This document shows, piece by piece, positions 40,591 through 47,470 of a DNA stretch of 47,470 nucleotides. The position numbers were made by a program, and so were the translations under genes. The notes beneath the pieces are model-generated. The model was given only the letters and a program-made list of their open reading frames with translations. It was not told where the DNA came from and ran no database searches. The stretch is from Clostridiales bacterium (GTDB taxonomy: Bacteria > Bacillota > Clostridia > Christensenellales > Aristaeellaceae). The stretch lies in assembly GCA_012520375.1 (NCBI GenBank), contig JAAYOH010000011.1, positions 1 to 47,470 on the forward strand, read 5' to 3'. Numbering within the stretch: position 1 is the first letter of the stretch; each line of letters starts with the position of its first letter.

Positions 40591-41682
40591 ATGGCAGAAA
40601 AAAGGAACGACAAGGCGGAAGCTGTGCGCAAGGTGAGCGATGACGAGCGCAGGCGCGCGCTGGAAGTGGCCCTGAGCCGGATCGAGAAGGATTTCGGCAA
40701 GGGCTCGGTGATGAAACTGGGGGACGCGGGCGCCCGGATGCAGGTGGAGGTCATCCCCACCGGTTGCCTGTCCCTGGACTTCGCCCTGGGCGTGGGTGGA
40801 CTGCCCCGGGGCAGGATCGTGGAGATCTACGGCCCCGAATCCTCGGGCAAGACCACCCTGGCCCTGCACACCATCGCCCAGGCCCAGAAGATGGGGGGCA
40901 CCGCCGCCTTCATCGATGCGGAGCACGCCCTGGACCCGGTGTACGCCCGGAAACTGGGGGTGGACATCGATGAATTGTACGTGGCCCAGCCCGACAACGG
41001 AGAGCAGGCCCTGGACATCACCGAAGCCCTGGTGCGCTCAGGCGCCATCGACCTGGTGGTCATCGACTCGGTGGCCGCCCTGGTGCCCCGGCAGGAGATC
41101 GAAGGGGACATGGGGGACCCCCATGTGGGCCTCCAGGCCCGGCTCATGAGCCAGGCGCTGCGCAAATTGGCCGGTGTCATCAGCAAGACCAACGCCCTGG
41201 TCATCTTCATCAACCAGCTCCGGGAAAAGGTGGGCGTCATGTACGGCAATCCCGAGGTGACCACCGGGGGCAAGGCCTTGAAGTTCTATGCCTCGGTGCG
41301 CATCGACGTGCGCAAGGGGCAGCCCATCAAGAACGGCTCCGACGTCATCGGCTATCGCACCAAGCTGAAGGTGGTCAAGAACAAGGTGGCGCCTCCCTTC
41401 CGCACCACCGTCGTGGACATGCTTTTTGGCGAGGGAATCTCCCGTTCCAGCGCCCTGCTGGAGATCGCGGTGCAGCGGGAGATTATCCGCAAGAGCGGCG
41501 CCTGGTACTACTACAACGACCAGCGCATCGGCCAGGGCAAGGAAAATGCCCGGCTGTATGTGAAAGATCATCCCGAGCTGGCGGACCTCATCGAGGAGCA
41601 GGTGCGGGATGATTTCGCCGCCGGCAGCCTGGAAGTGGACGGGGAGCCCGAAGACCTGGATGAACCCGACGATGAGGAATGA
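40591..41682 (+). CDS. recA: Recombinase RecA
   Basis: The 363-residue strand-exchange protein and SOS coprotease. Walker [10 protein letters not shown] lies near residue 81, and [11 protein letters not shown] is Walker B. The L1/L2 DNA-binding loops ([32 protein letters not shown]) are intact. The C-terminal tail is acidic ([12 protein letters not shown]). GAGGAGG lies ahead of the ATG. It begins a closely packed run: the lipoprotein gene starts 23 bp after its stop. The usual cinA neighbour is absent. Confidence 0.98.
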
Positions 41683-41705
41683 GATCTGACGGGGGAAGGG
41701 TACGC

Positions 41706-43631
41706 ATGCGGAAACGGATATCCCTGGCGCTCCTTTTGTGCTGCCTGTTAACGGCCTGCGCCGTTTGCAGCCATGTGCCCGCGTCCGCCCTTGCCTATTT
41801 CCCGGCCCCCTTCCGGGTCCCCAAACCCACACCCACACAAACTTCTACCCAAACGCCTACCCCTACCCCGACGTCCACGCCTACTCCAACGCCCACGCCT
41901 ACTCCAACGCCCACGCCTACCCCCACGCCCACGCCTACCCCCACGCCCACGCCTACCCCTACCCCAACGCCCACGCCCACGCCCACCCCCCTGCCGGATA
42001 CCTTGTCCGTACAGCCCGATACCGGGAAGATCCAGATGGTGGTGCCCGAGGAGATCCAGGTGGAAGTGAGCCTGGAAAACACGGGGCGGATTCCCATTTC
42101 GGATATAAAGGTGTGCCGGGAAAACGGGTCCGTGGTGCGGGAGCTCGGGGCCCTGAACGAAGGGGAGAGCGCCCGGTTCCAGGAGACCATCACCCCCACG
42201 GACACCCAATTGAACGAGGGCGCCATCCCCTATCTGGTGTGTTACACCCTGGGCAAGGGCGGTCCGCTGGCCCGGGAAGAACGGCGGCCCATCCTGATAC
42301 GCATCACCAGGCTGCCTGCCTTGCCCGGGGTGGAATTCACCCGCTCCCTGCCCGTCGGGGACGTGAAGCCCGGGGAAGAGGCGGCCATCGTGTACCGCCT
42401 GCGCAACACGGGCAACGTGCAGCTCACCAGCCTGACCATAGAGGACGGAACACTGGGCCAGGTGGGCGCCCTGGACCGGCTGAACCCGGGGGAGCAGCAA
42501 GCCATCATCCACCGCTTCACCGCCCTCGAGCCCGTGTCCTCCCAGCCTGTGCTCCGCTATTCCCACCGGGCCACCCAGGACTTTTTTGAGGCGCACCTGT
42601 CCGAATTGTGGGTGCATCCCGCCAGCGAGCACCTGGAGATCGCCCTGACGGCGGACCGTTCGGCGGTCTCCCCCGGGGACGTGGTCCGGCTGAACTATAC
42701 CGTGCTGAACGGCGGGACGTTGGTCTACGACAAGCTTTCCCTCAGCGACCAGGTCCTGGGGGCTATGCACCGCTTCAGCGGCAGATTGCTGCCCGGCGGC
42801 CGGCTCGATTTCAGCAAGCAGGTGGCGCTGGAGAGCACCACCACCTTTCAGTTCCTGCTGGAGGCGATCAGCGAGGGGGGCAGTGAGGTCAAGGCCTCCT
42901 CCAATCCCCTGACCATCGCGGTCAGCCAGCCGGACGGGGTGTTGTCCCTCAGCCTGAGCGCCGTGCCCGACAAGGACGTTCTGGCAGCCCCCGGATTCGT
43001 TACCTTCGCCCTCACGGTGCACAACGGAGGGGAGAGCCAGGTACGCAACGTCCGGCTGTCCGAGCGGGAACACGGCCACTTCAAGACCCTTGCCGTGCTG
43101 GCCCAAGGGGATACCCCCGCCAGCGTCACCTATCCCGTGGATCGGGAACAGAGTTTCGTGTTCGCGGCGGAACTGGAAGACGAGCGGGGCGGCCACCTTA
43201 CCGTGCTGTCGGCTCCCGTCACCGTTGCCTTCGGCCCCGGCGGCCAGGCGGGAGGAACCACCCCGCAGCCCGGGGACGTGGAGGCCATGGCGGGCGCTCC
43301 CTCCTATCAGGTGCGGGAGGACGACTCCACCTATGCCGGGATGATCGTCGGCGCCCTGCTGGTGCTGGTGCCGCTGGCGGTATACGTTATCCTGAAAGGG
43401 TCGGCCAACAGGCGCCGCAGGAAGCGCAGGAACAACCAGCACATCTGGCGGCTGCGCCAGAGTTACAGGCGCAGCCTGGTCCGGGAAGAGGAGCAGGACA
43501 CCAAGCCCAACCCCGTGGTGAGCCGGTATACCCTGCGGCATGCCAAGGTGAAAAGGCAAACGGAGCAGGACGGGCGCAGGCCCGGCACGCCCCATGGGCC
43601 CAAAATCGGCTCCCGGAAGGGCAAACAATAG
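41706..43631 (+). CDS. Predicted lipoprotein with Pro-Thr linker, Ig-like repeats and C-terminal membrane anchor
   Basis: A 641-residue exported protein. The signal peptide ends in the lipobox LLTAC (Cys18), so N-terminal lipidation is likely. Residues about 40-97 are an almost pure Pro-Thr repeat (a rigid cell-wall-spanning spacer) encoded by GC-rich 6-bp and 18-bp tandem repeats. About 100-540 contain three or four beta-rich modules like CARDB/DUF11 domains ([40 protein letters not shown]). A membrane segment at about 540-562 ([19 protein letters not shown]) is followed by a very basic cytoplasmic tail (RRRRKRR) of about 80 residues. Two anchors in one chain is unusual. The binding partner is unknown. 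It lies between recA (23 bp) and the mutase-like gene (11 bp). Confidence 0.75.
41823..41994 (+). repeat. Short tandem repeats coding for the Pro-Thr linker
   Basis: About 170 bp of repeated CCCACG/CCTACC/CCAACG hexamers, in places arranged as 18-bp units. Both DNA repeat and amino-acid repeat are in frame, so changes in copy number would alter linker length without frameshift. Confidence 0.85.
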
Positions 43632-43642
43632 AAGGAGGCTTT

Positions 43643-45178
43643 ATGCAAAAAAGCCAATACTTGAAACTGAAGAGCGGGACGGACATCCGGGGCTGCGCCA
43701 GCCCGGGAGAGGGGCGCCAGCCCCTGCTCACGAAGCAGGCCGCCGAAAAGATCGGCTACGCCTTTGCCCATTTGCTGGCCCGCAGGCAGGAAACCACCCC
43801 GGACAAACTGACCATCGCGGTGGGCCACGACGCCCGGGAGAGCGGGTCCGCCCTGGCCCGGGCTTTCATCCGCGGCCTCACCGCCGCGGACTGCGACGTG
43901 ACGGACTGCGGGCTGTGCCCCACCCCCGCCATGATCTGGTCCGCCGCCCTGGGCCATGCGGACGGCGCTGCCATGGTGACAGCCGGCCATCATCCCTGGC
44001 ACGAAAACGGCTTCAAGTTCAGCGGCCGGGACGGGGGCTTCACCGGGGAGGAGATCGAGGAGATCCTCCGGGCTGCGGAGACCGCCAGCCCGGTGGTGCG
44101 CCTGGTCACCCCCTTTGACATGGCAAGCCTGTATCTGGACCAGCTGCGGGCCATGGTGTGCCAAAGGCTGGACAGCGAGGTGCAGTGTCCCCTGTTGGGG
44201 CTCCACGTGGTGGTGGATGCCGGCGGCGGCGTCGGTGCCCTTTTTGCCCGCTTCCTGGAGGAACTGGGCTGCGAGATCACCGGCAGCCGGGGCCTGGAAC
44301 ACGATCCCTTCAGCCCGGCGGGCTACCGCGCCTTCGACGACCCCCGGGTGTTGAAGGCCATGGCCCGCACCGTGGTGGACAACACCGCCGACCTGGGGGT
44401 GATTCTGGATGCGGACGGGGACCGGGCGGTGTTCGTGGACGAAAAGGGCCGCACCTTAAGCGGCGACCGCCTGATCGCCCTGGTCAGCGCCCTGCTGCTC
44501 CGGGAGCCCGGCGCCACCATCGTCACCGATTCCGTCACCTCCTCCGGGCTGCAGCGCTTCATCACCGAGTGGGGCGGGGAGCACTACCGCTTCAAGCGGG
44601 GCTACCAGAACGTGATCCGGGAAGCCGTGCGCCTGAACCAGGAGGGCATCGACTGTCCCCTGGCCATGGAGACCAGCGGCCACGCTGCCTTCCGGGACAA
44701 TCACTTCATAGACGACGGCATGTACCTGGCGGCCTGGCTGCTGTGCGAGGCCCTGATCCTCAAACGGGACGGGGAGACCCTTTACAGCCTCATCGAGGAG
44801 CTCGGCGAGCCCGTGGAGCGCAGCGAGCTGCGCCTCCCCATCCTGGAGGAGGACTACCACCTGGCGGCCCAGTCGGCCATCGAGACCATCCTGTCCAATA
44901 CCCTGGCGGACGCCTCCTGGCACCTGGCCCCGGACAACCGGGAAGGGGTGCGCATCCTCTTCGACCTGTCCGGGGGCGTGGGCAACGCCTGGTTCCAGCT
45001 GCGCCTGTCGGTGCACGACCCGGTGCTGGCGCTGTGCGCCGAATCCGAAGTGCCCGGGGGCGTGGAACACATGCTCACCCAGCTGTACGCGCTGCTCAGG
45101 GAAGAGCAGGAGGGCGCGCTGGACCTCATGCCCCTGAAGCAGGCCATCGGGCAGGGGGAAGAAGGGGAAGAAAAGTGA
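43643..45178 (+). CDS. Phosphohexomutase homologue lacking the catalytic serine
   Basis: A 511-residue protein of the alpha-D-phosphohexomutase superfamily (phosphomannomutase/phosphoglucomutase branch beginning KSGTDIRG). The metal loop DADGD (256-260), sugar-binding ETSGH (343-347) and the C-terminal phosphate-binding region are present. The catalytic loop, however, reads VTAGHHPWHENG where active enzymes have TASHxP: the phosphoserine position (115) is Gly, codon GGC. Normal mutase chemistry needs that phosphoserine, so the protein is either inactive, regulatory or repurposed. The neighbouring residues remain conserved, which argues against simple decay. The MazG-like gene starts inside its stop codon. 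Confidence 0.85.
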   Translation: MQKSQYLKLKSGTDIRGCASPGEGRQPLLTKQAAEKIGYAFAHLLARRQETTPDKLTIAVGHDARESGSALARAFIRGLTAADCDVTDCGLCPTPAMIWSAALGHADGAAMVTAGHHPWHENGFKFSGRDGGFTGEEIEEILRAAETASPVVRLVTPFDMASLYLDQLRAMVCQRLDSEVQCPLLGLHVVVDAGGGVGALFARFLEELGCEITGSRGLEHDPFSPAGYRAFDDPRVLKAMARTVVDNTADLGVILDADGDRAVFVDEKGRTLSGDRLIALVSALLLREPGATIVTDSVTSSGLQRFITEWGGEHYRFKRGYQNVIREAVRLNQEGIDCPLAMETSGHAAFRDNHFIDDGMYLAAWLLCEALILKRDGETLYSLIEELGEPVERSELRLPILEEDYHLAAQSAIETILSNTLADASWHLAPDNREGVRILFDLSGGVGNAWFQLRLSVHDPVLALCAESEVPGGVEHMLTQLYALLREEQEGALDLMPLKQAIGQGEEGEEK

Positions 45179-45552
45179 ACGACCGGGATACTACCCTGGC
45201 CGCCCTGAAGGAAGAGGTACACAAGCTGTGCCTGCGCAAGGAATGGGGCGTCCAGGGGGTACAGGATCCCCAGCACGTTGCCATGGCCATGACGGTGGAG
45301 ATGGCCGAGTTGCTGGAGCATTTTCAATGGCTGTCCCCGGCGGGGGTGCAGCGCCTGCTGAAAGGGGAGGACCCGGAGCGGGTGGCCCTGATCGGCGGGG
45401 AGTTTGCCGACGTCATGATGTACGGGCTGCAGCTGGCCCGTGCCCTGGACATCGACATCACGGAAGAAATCATGCGCAAGATCCGCATTGTGGACGAGCG
45501 GCCGAACAGCCGCCGCGAGCTCATCGCCCGGGGCGATCCGGATCTGCGCTGA
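45175..45552 (+). CDS. MazG-like nucleotide pyrophosphohydrolase
   Basis: A 125-residue all-alpha NTP pyrophosphatase of the MazG/DCTPP1 type. It would split a (d)NTP or a modified nucleotide to the monophosphate and pyrophosphate. The metal-binding pattern is VEMAELLEHFQWLSP (near 40-54) and GEFADVMMYG (near 76-85), with acidic residues spaced as in the family. The start is GTG at 45175, overlapping the preceding stop codon (GTGA), with GAAGGGGAAG upstream. The tight coupling to a mutase homologue before it and a GMP-synthetase homologue 19 bp after it suggests a joint role on a nucleotide or nucleotide-sugar. The substrate is unknown. Confidence 0.85.
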   Translation: MNDRDTTLAALKEEVHKLCLRKEWGVQGVQDPQHVAMAMTVEMAELLEHFQWLSPAGVQRLLKGEDPERVALIGGEFADVMMYGLQLARALDIDITEEIMRKIRIVDERPNSRRELIARGDPDLR

Positions 45553-45571: not shown

Positions 45572-47044
45572 GTGTATCAGAGTATGTGTGTCATCCTGGA
45601 TATGGGCGGGTCACAGGCGGTCTCCGTAGCCCGCAAAGTCCGGGCCAAGAAGGTGTTCTGCGAGATATTGCCCTGGGATGCCCCGGTGGAGCGCATCCTC
45701 CTCCACGCGCCCCTGGGGGTGATCGTGGCGGGGGGTGTGGGCGACCCCTTTGCGGGGGAGGGACTTCCCCCTGCGACCCTGGCGCTGCCCCTGCCCATGC
45801 TGGGGCTGGGCTGCGGCGCGGGGGCCATCCTCTCGGGCTACGGCGCCGCATCCACCCGCAGCATGCCCGGTCGCCAGACCGTGCAGGTCAGCTTCGACGA
45901 CGATCCCCTCTTTGAGGGGCTGAGCAGCTCCGAGCGCCTCATCCAGCGCCTGGACGAAGTGGAGCTACCCCCGGGCTTCCACTCCATCGCCCGGGAAGAG
46001 GGCGACTGGTCCGTGGCCTTTGCCTGCCCGGAAAAGGCGCGGTGGGGCGTGCAGTTCTATCCGGAGCAAAACGATCCCGACGGGCTGCAGATCCTGGAAA
46101 ATTTTACCATGAAAATTTGCGGCTGCCAGCCCTCCTGGAATATTCAGAATTTCATGGAGTACGAGACCGCCCGCATCCGGGAAAAGGCCGGGGAGGGCCG
46201 GGTCCTGCTGGCCCTGTCCGGGGGCGTGGACTCCGCCGTGTGCGCCGCCCTGATGCACCACGCGGTGGGGGAGCGGCTCCACTGCGTCTACGTGGACACC
46301 GGCTTCATGCGGGCGGGGGATGCGGAGGCCATCCGCCAGATGGCCGAGAGGCTGCCCGGCGCCCATTTCACCCGGGCTGAGATGGAGGAACGCTTCCTCC
46401 GCAAGATCGAAGGGGTGCGGGACGCAACCCGCAAGCGCCGCCTCATTTCCGAGGAACTGATCCGGGCCTTCGAGGAAAGCGCCCAGGACGCGGAAGATGC
46501 CGGGGTGCTGGCCCGGGGCACCACCTACGACGACCTGTTGATGGGGGAGGAAAGCCCCGAGGACCGGGAGAGCTCCTCCGTCCTGCAGGTGCTGGAGCCC
46601 CTGCGCGGCCTCTTCAAGAGCGAGGTGCGGGCCCTGGGCCGGGCCCTGGGGCTGCCCGAGGAAATCACCGACCAGCAGGCCTTTCCCGGCGCCGGACTGG
46701 CGGTGCGCTGCATGGGATGCGTCACCAGGGAAAAACTGTCCATCCTGCGCCGCTCCGACCTGATCTTCCGGGAAGAGATCCAGCAGGCCGGCCTGGAGCG
46801 CAGGGTGCGCCAGTACTTTGCCCTGCTGGCCGACGTGCTCAGCCCCGACGCCCACGGCCGCCTGGGCTACACCGTGGTGCTCCGGGCGGTGAACTGGTCC
46901 ACCCCCGACGTAGCGACCTCCTACCGCCTGCCCTTCGACCTGCTGGAGCGGGTGATGGAGCGCATCACCGGCACCGTGGAGGGCGTGAGCCGGGTGGTGT
47001 ACGACCTCACCAGCAAGCCACCCGCTCGGATCGAGTGGGAGTAG
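45572..47044 (+). CDS. GMP-synthetase (GuaA) homologue with inactive glutaminase domain and altered synthetase motif
   Basis: A 490-residue protein with GuaA domain order. N-terminal amidotransferase domain, residues 1 to about 180: where GuaA has GICYG this reads GLGCG (the catalytic Cys position is Gly80), and the conserved FHPE is FYPE (Tyr163), so glutamine hydrolysis should be lost. ATP-pyrophosphatase domain: SGGVDS at 216-221 is intact, and FPGAGLAVR is near family sequence. The conserved KSHHNVGG loop is missing; ESPEDRESSSVLQ stands there. The C-terminal dimerisation end is typical (VVYDLTSKPPARIEWE). It may use ammonia or act on another substrate. The start GTG (45572) has GGGAGGG seven bases upstream; an ATG at 45584 is the alternative. 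Confidence 0.85.
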   Translation: MYQSMCVILDMGGSQAVSVARKVRAKKVFCEILPWDAPVERILLHAPLGVIVAGGVGDPFAGEGLPPATLALPLPMLGLGCGAGAILSGYGAASTRSMPGRQTVQVSFDDDPLFEGLSSSERLIQRLDEVELPPGFHSIAREEGDWSVAFACPEKARWGVQFYPEQNDPDGLQILENFTMKICGCQPSWNIQNFMEYETARIREKAGEGRVLLALSGGVDSAVCAALMHHAVGERLHCVYVDTGFMRAGDAEAIRQMAERLPGAHFTRAEMEERFLRKIEGVRDATRKRRLISEELIRAFEESAQDAEDAGVLARGTTYDDLLMGEESPEDRESSSVLQVLEPLRGLFKSEVRALGRALGLPEEITDQQAFPGAGLAVRCMGCVTREKLSILRRSDLIFREEIQQAGLERRVRQYFALLADVLSPDAHGRLGYTVVLRAVNWSTPDVATSYRLPFDLLERVMERITGTVEGVSRVVYDLTSKPPARIEWE

Positions 47045-47082
47045 TATCAGCAGCACAAAATAATGTTGATATATAAGGTGTT

Positions 47083-47113
47083 TTGAATGGTTGACGCCCT
47101 AATGCGCTATAAT
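47083..47113 (+). promoter_or_regulatory. Candidate promoter of the restriction-modification genes
   Basis: TTGAAT, a 19-bp spacer and a perfect TATAAT, in AT-rich DNA after the last gene of the recA run. The long spacer makes the -35 uncertain. Confidence 0.5.
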
Positions 47114-47182
47114 ATGTGGGAAAAATCATTTATTATGTCTCTTTGAGAGCAAGATACACTCGTAGGCGGAGGAGATGGTTGG

Positions 47183-47245
47183 ATGGGCACCCAGGATCAT
47201 GATGTTATGTATGAGTTTTTAAAATATGTTGTTAAAACAAAATGA
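47183..47245 (+). CDS. Possible 20-residue leader ORF before hsdM
   Basis: ATG GGC ... TGA encodes MGTQDHDVMYEFLKYVVKTK. GGCGGAGGAG lies about 10 bases upstream. The ORF ends 20 bp before the hsdM ATG and is on its expected transcript. It may be a coupled leader or simply chance. Confidence 0.25.
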   Translation: MGTQDHDVMYEFLKYVVKTK

Positions 47246-47265
47246 TTGGATGAGGAAATGATTAC

Positions 47266-47470
47266 ATGACAATCACCAAAAAGACGAACAACACAGCCGC
47301 CATCGGTTTTGAAGAGCAAATTTGGAAAGCAGCAGATATTTTGCGTGGAAATATTGATGCAGCGGAGTACAAGCATGTTGTGCTTGGGCTTATCTTCCTC
47401 AAGTATATCTCTGATAAATTTGACGAACGCTATCAAGAACTGCTGGAGGACGATGACGACATCGAGGATA
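47266..47470 (+). CDS. hsdM: Type I restriction-modification methyltransferase subunit HsdM, N-terminal part
   Basis: 68 codons are visible before the right edge. [20 protein letters not shown] then [18 protein letters not shown] is the standard N-terminal helical (N12) domain of HsdM. The methyltransferase domain would follow outside the window. HsdM with HsdS methylates adenine at the recognition site and with HsdR forms the restriction enzyme; hsdS and hsdR are expected downstream. The gene is AT-rich and follows the end of the GC-rich block, consistent with an acquired defence gene. The ATG at 47266 has GAGGAAA about ten bases ahead. Confidence 0.9.

Follow-up and report, generated by a model that had tools for sequence, protein, structure and literature searches.

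A proposed GuaA-derived pseudoenzyme, specific to a single bacterial family and one near relative

What becomes of a GMP synthetase that has lost both its glutaminase and the loop with which it makes GMP? The question is raised by a gene in a 47,470-nucleotide stretch of DNA (the window: contig JAAYOH010000011.1, positions 1 to 47,470, of the Clostridiales bacterium assembly GCA_012520375.1, family Aristaeellaceae), which a sequence-only reading had taken to encode a new subfamily of GuaA-like enzymes that adenylates another substrate or uses free ammonia. The gene starts with GTG at 45572 and stops at 47042-47044, an alternative ATG start being possible at residue 5. It and its upstream neighbor have the following layout:

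45175 to 45552, forward strand: gene for a MazG-like nucleotide pyrophosphohydrolase (PF12643), 19 bp upstream of the window gene
45572 to 47044, forward strand: GuaA-like pseudoenzyme gene (the window gene), an open reading frame encoding 490 aa with Pfam GATase, NAD_synthase and GMP_synt_C domains
45572 to 46129, forward strand: glutaminase (GATase) domain, residues 1-186, with a dead triad (PF00117 at 7-181; site table)
45809 to 45811, forward strand: codon of Gly80, which replaces the catalytic Cys (alignment)
46058 to 46060, forward strand: codon of Tyr163, which replaces the triad His (alignment)
46064 to 46081, forward strand: E-x-N-D-P-D, residues 165-170, a clade-special motif (Glu in 62/62 rows, Asp168 in 62/62)
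46130 to 46711, forward strand: ATP-pyrophosphatase domain, residues 187-380 (Pfam, model, site table)
46217 to 46234, forward strand: SGGVDS P-loop, residues 216-221 (sequence, site table)
46544 to 46582, forward strand: site of the missing lid loop, residues about 325-337 (alignment; drop in AlphaFold confidence)
46712 to 47041, forward strand: C-terminal dimerization domain, residues 381-490, with the KPPARIEWE end at 482-490 (PF00958, 78.4 bits)

The best solved relatives of the protein are GMP synthetases, with the Thermus enzyme (2ywb) at the top (E 6.5e-84). Its AlphaFold model has a mean pLDDT of 90.3, with minima of 63-68 at residues 321-340, around the former lid, and of 53 in the final ten residues; in Foldseek searches with this predicted model the closest PDB folds are again GMP synthetases (5tw7, E 1.6e-50), and the best full-length matches among bacterial GuaA proteins are 34-38% identical to it. 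The GMP synthetase fold is thus predicted to be retained, which speaks to fold and not to function. With GuaA (PRK00074; 1gpm, 2ywb/2ywc, 5tw7, 3uow) the protein shares the three-domain layout, the P-loop, most XMP contacts and the C-terminal dimer end, but it falls below all three GuaA equivalog cut-offs (397.3 bits against 400 for NCBIfam PRK00074, 288.6 against 338.75 and 74.6 against 172.15 for the other two).

Alignment to the Thermus GuaA (TtGuaA, 2ywb) bore out the residue calls of the sequence-only reading exactly: Cys78 is replaced by Gly80, the triad His164 by Tyr163, and the KSHHNVGG loop is missing, leaving the lid residues Lys334, His336, His337 and Asn338 without counterparts. 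The parts it had described as kept, namely SGGVDS at 216-221, the linker and the C-terminal KPPARIEWE, are indeed present, as is the triad Glu166 (Glu165 in the window protein). Two further substitutions were absent from its list. In the helix preceding the lid Asp371 (Plasmodium numbering) is kept as Asp321, whereas Glu374, described as invariant in PMC9312489, has become Met324; and the ATP-contacting Arg378 (Thermus) is Gln368. Of the XMP and ATP contacts listed in PMC11448925, seven of the eight XMP contacts given for TtGuaA are kept (Arg289, Pro372, Gly373, Gln414, Lys482, Ile487 and Glu488 in the window protein), the exception being Pro384, now Ala374.

We tabulated these residues in 11 rows of the window's subclade (clade I, at least 42% identical to the window protein, plus L093), in the remaining 19 pseudoenzyme rows (clade II, a label only and not shown to be one clade), in 14 GuaA proteins with a complete KAHHN/KSHHN synthetase and a truncated or missing glutaminase (type B), and in 50 canonical GuaA proteins from relatives and outgroups, which include two odd rows, G035_C167 and G010_C32. 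The residues are kept as follows, in the order clade I, clade II, type B, canonical:

Catalytic Cys: 0/11, 0/19, 1/14, 48/50
Triad His: 0/11, 1/19, 0/14, 50/50
Lid Lys: 0/11, 0/19, 14/14, 50/50 (each of the lid Lys/His/His/Asn being kept in 50/50 canonical rows)
P-loop Asp221: 11/11, 15/19, 14/14, 50/50
Asp371 (Plasmodium numbering): 11/11, 14/19, 14/14, 50/50
Glu374 (Plasmodium numbering): 1/11, 1/19, 14/14, 50/50
Lys359: 11/11, 13/19, 14/14, 50/50
XMP-phosphate Lys495: 5/11, 0/19, 14/14, 50/50
Gln424: 9/11, 8/19, 14/14, 50/50

In a wider set of 62 rows, including the window (14 repeats of genomes already present were dropped and the row from G168 was set apart), the Cys column holds Gly in 61 and Ser in one, the triad Glu and the Asp of the ExND motif are present in all 62, the IK(S/T)HHN lid motif is missing in 61, its sole bearer being L184, and 18 rows lack SGG[VLA]DS. 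As the same departures recur in orthologs from many separate genomes, they are attributable neither to chance nor to a sequencing or assembly error, which we rejected as a cause.

In a phylogenetic tree built with the lid columns removed a branch with an SH-aLRT support of 100 separates all 30 pseudoenzyme rows from true GuaA, and the 14 type B rows are likewise set apart (SH-aLRT 100); this tree comes from a quick method with no bootstrap and contains several long branches, so its inner order is unsure. Copies of this kind occur in 29 of 60 genomes (the window's own and 59 relatives), of which 28 are among the 36 genomes of the window's family, own genome included, and one, G057, belongs to another family of the same order; G168, from that same other family, also has the form. 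In a survey of 150 genomes of the window's family 101 show one short-form match each among the matches listed, a possible undercount as weaker matches were unlisted; these were chosen by match length, with the window's own genome, a partial match in G396 and L184 of G337, which bears the lid, among them, and had their motifs checked in a subset of rows. No stop was found inside any listed match of this survey. A model of the window's subclade scored above 600 bits in just three of 297 genomes of the order (G006, G000 and G299), all from the same family. Among 196 genomes of the class, every full-length match listed has canonical length apart from the window's own and two that contig ends truncate; matches to the synthetase part only are common. 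A scan of named genomes returned mostly canonical GuaA among its best 80 loci, with a single full-length locus lacking the Cys motif and the lid (L093, from the uncultured Clostridiales MAG RUG13574). The proposal of a new subfamily is therefore upheld by the clean split in the tree and by the spread of the short form through the family, and the window gene belongs to a GuaA-derived group, probably of pseudoenzymes, that is specific to one family of bacteria and a near relative of it.

One member points to the order in which the active sites were lost. L184, from G337, combines a dead glutaminase carrying the clade motif (QFFPEQNDPDG) with an intact lid and synthetase, and so the glutaminase was probably lost first and the lid later. 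L184 lies on the clade's side in both the synthetase tree (support 97) and the glutaminase tree (100), from which the eight longest rows were left out; we accordingly do not favor its being a chimera of a clade member and another GuaA, although a canonical row, G059, is closest to it by path length in the synthetase tree (0.93), a point left for that reading. Like most of clade I, L184 has a MazG-like gene upstream, here at 37 bp, and its genome also carries a canonical GuaA. The succession would thus have begun with loss of the glutaminase and gain of the ExNDPD motif, continued with loss of the lid loop and, outside the window's subclade, ended in erosion of the XMP site and the P-loop. A separate case, L083 (G035:C167:406-1968), has altered glutaminase motifs (GIGYG, no HPE) with intact lid and synthetase; as it groups with canonical GuaA, it probably reflects an independent loss of the glutaminase.

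The absent lid weighs more heavily than the absent Cys. In an alignment of 600 GMP synthetases PMC4673825 reports IK(T/S)HH in every one; it also reports that the Plasmodium enzyme retains ammonia-dependent turnover when mutated to C89A, so that loss of the Cys alone is evidently tolerated. According to PMC10526850 the lid Lys/His/His take part in ATP binding and in adenylation itself, the lid mutants K386L and H389A form no adenyl-XMP and N390A no GMP, and mutation of the lid Lys, His and Asn abolishes or cripples these steps with ammonia too. Given these reports, the missing loop makes it unlikely that the window protein synthesizes GMP, even from ammonia. In the open-access literature we found no paper on GuaA paralogs, pseudoenzymes or dead glutaminases of this kind.

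A broken-looking copy that many members of a family keep intact probably has a new job other than making GMP, and the protein combines an enzyme fold whose catalytic residues are lost with retention by selection, as is expected of a pseudoenzyme. Based on these observations we propose, with moderate confidence, that the window gene is a GuaA paralog turned pseudoenzyme with a new and most likely nucleotide-responsive role. Such a protein would still dimerize and would bind ATP, a purine nucleotide such as XMP, or both, without being able to complete adenyl-XMP or GMP, and could serve, in response to nucleotides, as a regulator or scaffold, its partner perhaps being the neighboring MazG-like pyrophosphohydrolase or the GNAT acetyltransferase encoded downstream in many relatives. 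Erosion of the P-loop among the 19 rows outside the window's subclade speaks for a non-catalytic role of the group.

The gene neighborhoods of 45 loci from different genomes (window included, genome repeats and the canonical L052 dropped, some contigs being too short) vary, and no constant operon partner was found across them. A MazG-like gene lies at most 70 bp upstream in 15 of them, or in 17 if two more at 361 and 826 bp are counted, a GNAT acetyltransferase gene follows directly in 22, and 13 have a CHAP/peptidoglycan-binding gene upstream; the downstream GNAT gene accompanies both upstream MazG (9 loci) and upstream CHAP (13). Presence of MazG follows the clade labels imperfectly, G004 of clade I being without it and G002 of clade II having it. 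In the window's own genome a GNAT homolog is encoded on another contig (C26); such homologs are found in 20 of 22 family genomes and in none of the 14 others searched. They also occur in G003, G008, G010 and G017, in which no copy of the pseudoenzyme was found. Elsewhere, in G026, an IMP-dehydrogenase homolog (L047, C3:595110-596495; 357 bits, below the model cut-off) directly precedes the copy, whose reading frame opens at 596605; this may be what is left of a guaB-guaA order. At 47050-47470 the GC fraction of the window falls abruptly to 0.37 from 0.60-0.72 before, and a type I restriction methylase (HsdM_N) begins there and runs into the contig end; this stretch adjoining the window gene was likely acquired as an island. 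On the other side of the gene, 41679-43631 encodes a probably exported protein that has a hydrophobic stretch at its N-terminus, a long repeat of Pro and Thr, and matches to DUF7507, CARDB and DUF11.

If the protein senses a ligand, the former glutaminase is a candidate for the site. Twelve columns, chosen by threshold with no shuffled control, so that fixation by common descent would also qualify, carry in the clade a conserved residue that is uncommon in GuaA, and 10 of the 12 lie in this domain; they include Gly80 (29/30), Arg122 (29/30, counted in the 30-row set, its reference column having met gaps in the 62-row set) and Asp168 (30/30). These columns suggest, but do not prove, a rebuilt site. 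Tentatively, and with clear doubt, we raise the further possibility that the domain has been remade family-wide as a ligand or partner site (Gly80, Arg122, Glu165-x-Asn167-Asp168-Pro169-Asp/Glu170), which would make the group a new class of GuaA-derived nucleotide sensor or else a novel ATP-dependent enzyme. The broader notion that constraint had shifted into the dead glutaminase was initially suggested by the window/G001 pair (dN/dS of 0.230 for the glutaminase, 0.409 for the ATP-pyrophosphatase and 0.423 for the dimer domain, with raw distances hinting likewise); we dropped it as a general claim after comparison at matched identity. At synthetase identities of 0.46-0.52 glutaminase conservation is 0.392 in the clade (49 pairs) versus 0.472 in canonical GuaA (16), and at 0.52-0.58 it is 0.465 (14 pairs) versus 0.488 (422); the opposite direction appears only in two pairs at 0.58-0.64, other genera being mixed.

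The strongest rival, which we nevertheless regard as unlikely, is that the protein remains active as a PP-loop ATP-pyrophosphatase and adenylates some other acceptor, with ammonia or another nucleophile, its lid having been replaced for the new substrate. The P-loop Ser/Gly/Gly/Asp/Ser, Asp321 and Lys349 are kept in all 11 rows of the window's subclade, a pattern that fits an ATP-using enzyme too, and the new motif in the former glutaminase and the MazG-like neighbor, suggestive of nucleotide chemistry, point the same way. Against it, the lid residues reported to serve adenylation itself (PMC10526850) have no visible conserved replacement at the lid position, the Arg378 contact is Gln in two of the 11 rows, the window's included, and in the remaining 19 rows the P-loop Ser survives in 13. 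The suggestion in the sequence-only reading that another substrate is adenylated hence draws support from the window's own subclade and loses it elsewhere in the group.

An improbable alternative is that the protein is an inactive chain that would form mixed dimers, through its C-terminal domain, with an active or glutaminase-less GuaA, in the manner of prozymes such as that of S-adenosylmethionine decarboxylase, reported in PMC6221367 as a catalytically dead paralog beside the active enzyme. The dimer-domain residues Arg438, Arg474 and Asp478 are kept in 11, 10 and 11 of the 11 subclade rows, and 26 of the 29 genomes of alignment A1 hold another GuaA match. The search for a second, canonical guaA in the window's own assembly (2.29 Mb, 95% complete) had a divided outcome: besides the window gene there is one further GMP_synt_C match, on contig C74, encoding a type B protein of 430 aa (L001:1495-2787, reverse strand) in which KAHHNVGG and the checked synthetase residues are intact but the glutaminase domain is truncated, and the assembly yielded no GuaA with the catalytic Cys. 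The same-genus G001 has a Cys-bearing GuaA (C103), a type B gene (C55) and a 65% identical ortholog of the window protein; type B genes also occur in G002, G006, G012, G026 and others. Like the archaeal-type GMP synthetase subunit B (MjATPPase, 6jp9), type B proteins resemble the window protein in having synthetase and dimer domains with no working glutaminase in cis, and probably use free ammonia or draw it from a separate glutaminase; they differ in keeping lid and P-loop (14/14), whereas the window protein has a full-length dead glutaminase domain and no lid. Partnership with such a protein is at odds with several observations. The other GuaA genes lie on contigs separate from the pseudoenzyme copy, or more than 300 kb away in G026, and the Lys of the C-terminal KPP is lost in all 19 rows outside the window's subclade. 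Furthermore, in G020, G030 and G033 no GuaA-like gene besides the pseudoenzyme copy was found although IMP dehydrogenase is present, so the protein cannot solely be a partner of another GuaA, unless these assemblies miss one; in these three and G016 (90-96% complete, IMP dehydrogenase present) no GuaA with intact motifs was found, and the gene may lie in the missing part.

Still less probable is a slow, ammonia-dependent GMP synthetase. The seven XMP contacts kept and the ammonia activity reported for Plasmodium C89A are in its favor, but the lid, present in every sequence aligned in PMC4673825 and with mutants reported in PMC10526850 as inactive or crippled, is gone, and the type B GuaA of the genome has the full set of synthetase motifs. 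The earlier suggestion that free ammonia is used is hence poorly supported for the window protein; it is plausible for the lid-bearing intermediate L184, judging from its motifs.

We give hardly any credence to a decaying, functionless relic, in spite of the erosion of catalytic sites across the group and of a dN/dS in the window/G001 pair (0.335) exceeding that of the MazG-like (0.165) and type B (0.203) genes, because the listed matches are free of stops, dN/dS is 0.08-0.42, well under 1, over 24 congeneric pairs, the new residues persist in 62 of 62 rows and the copy in two thirds of the surveyed family genomes. Purifying selection acts on the window gene, under a weaker constraint than on the type B and MazG-like genes.

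These observations matter beyond this locus. GMP synthetase is regarded as a strictly conserved enzyme, and PMC4673825 reports its lid motif for all 600 aligned sequences; the clade breaks this rule family-wide. As a practical warning, copies scoring just below the cut-off may be read as GMP synthetases, probably wrongly. As the loss was apparently stepwise and an intermediate is still extant, the family offers a natural series for the dismantling and reuse of a two-site amidotransferase.
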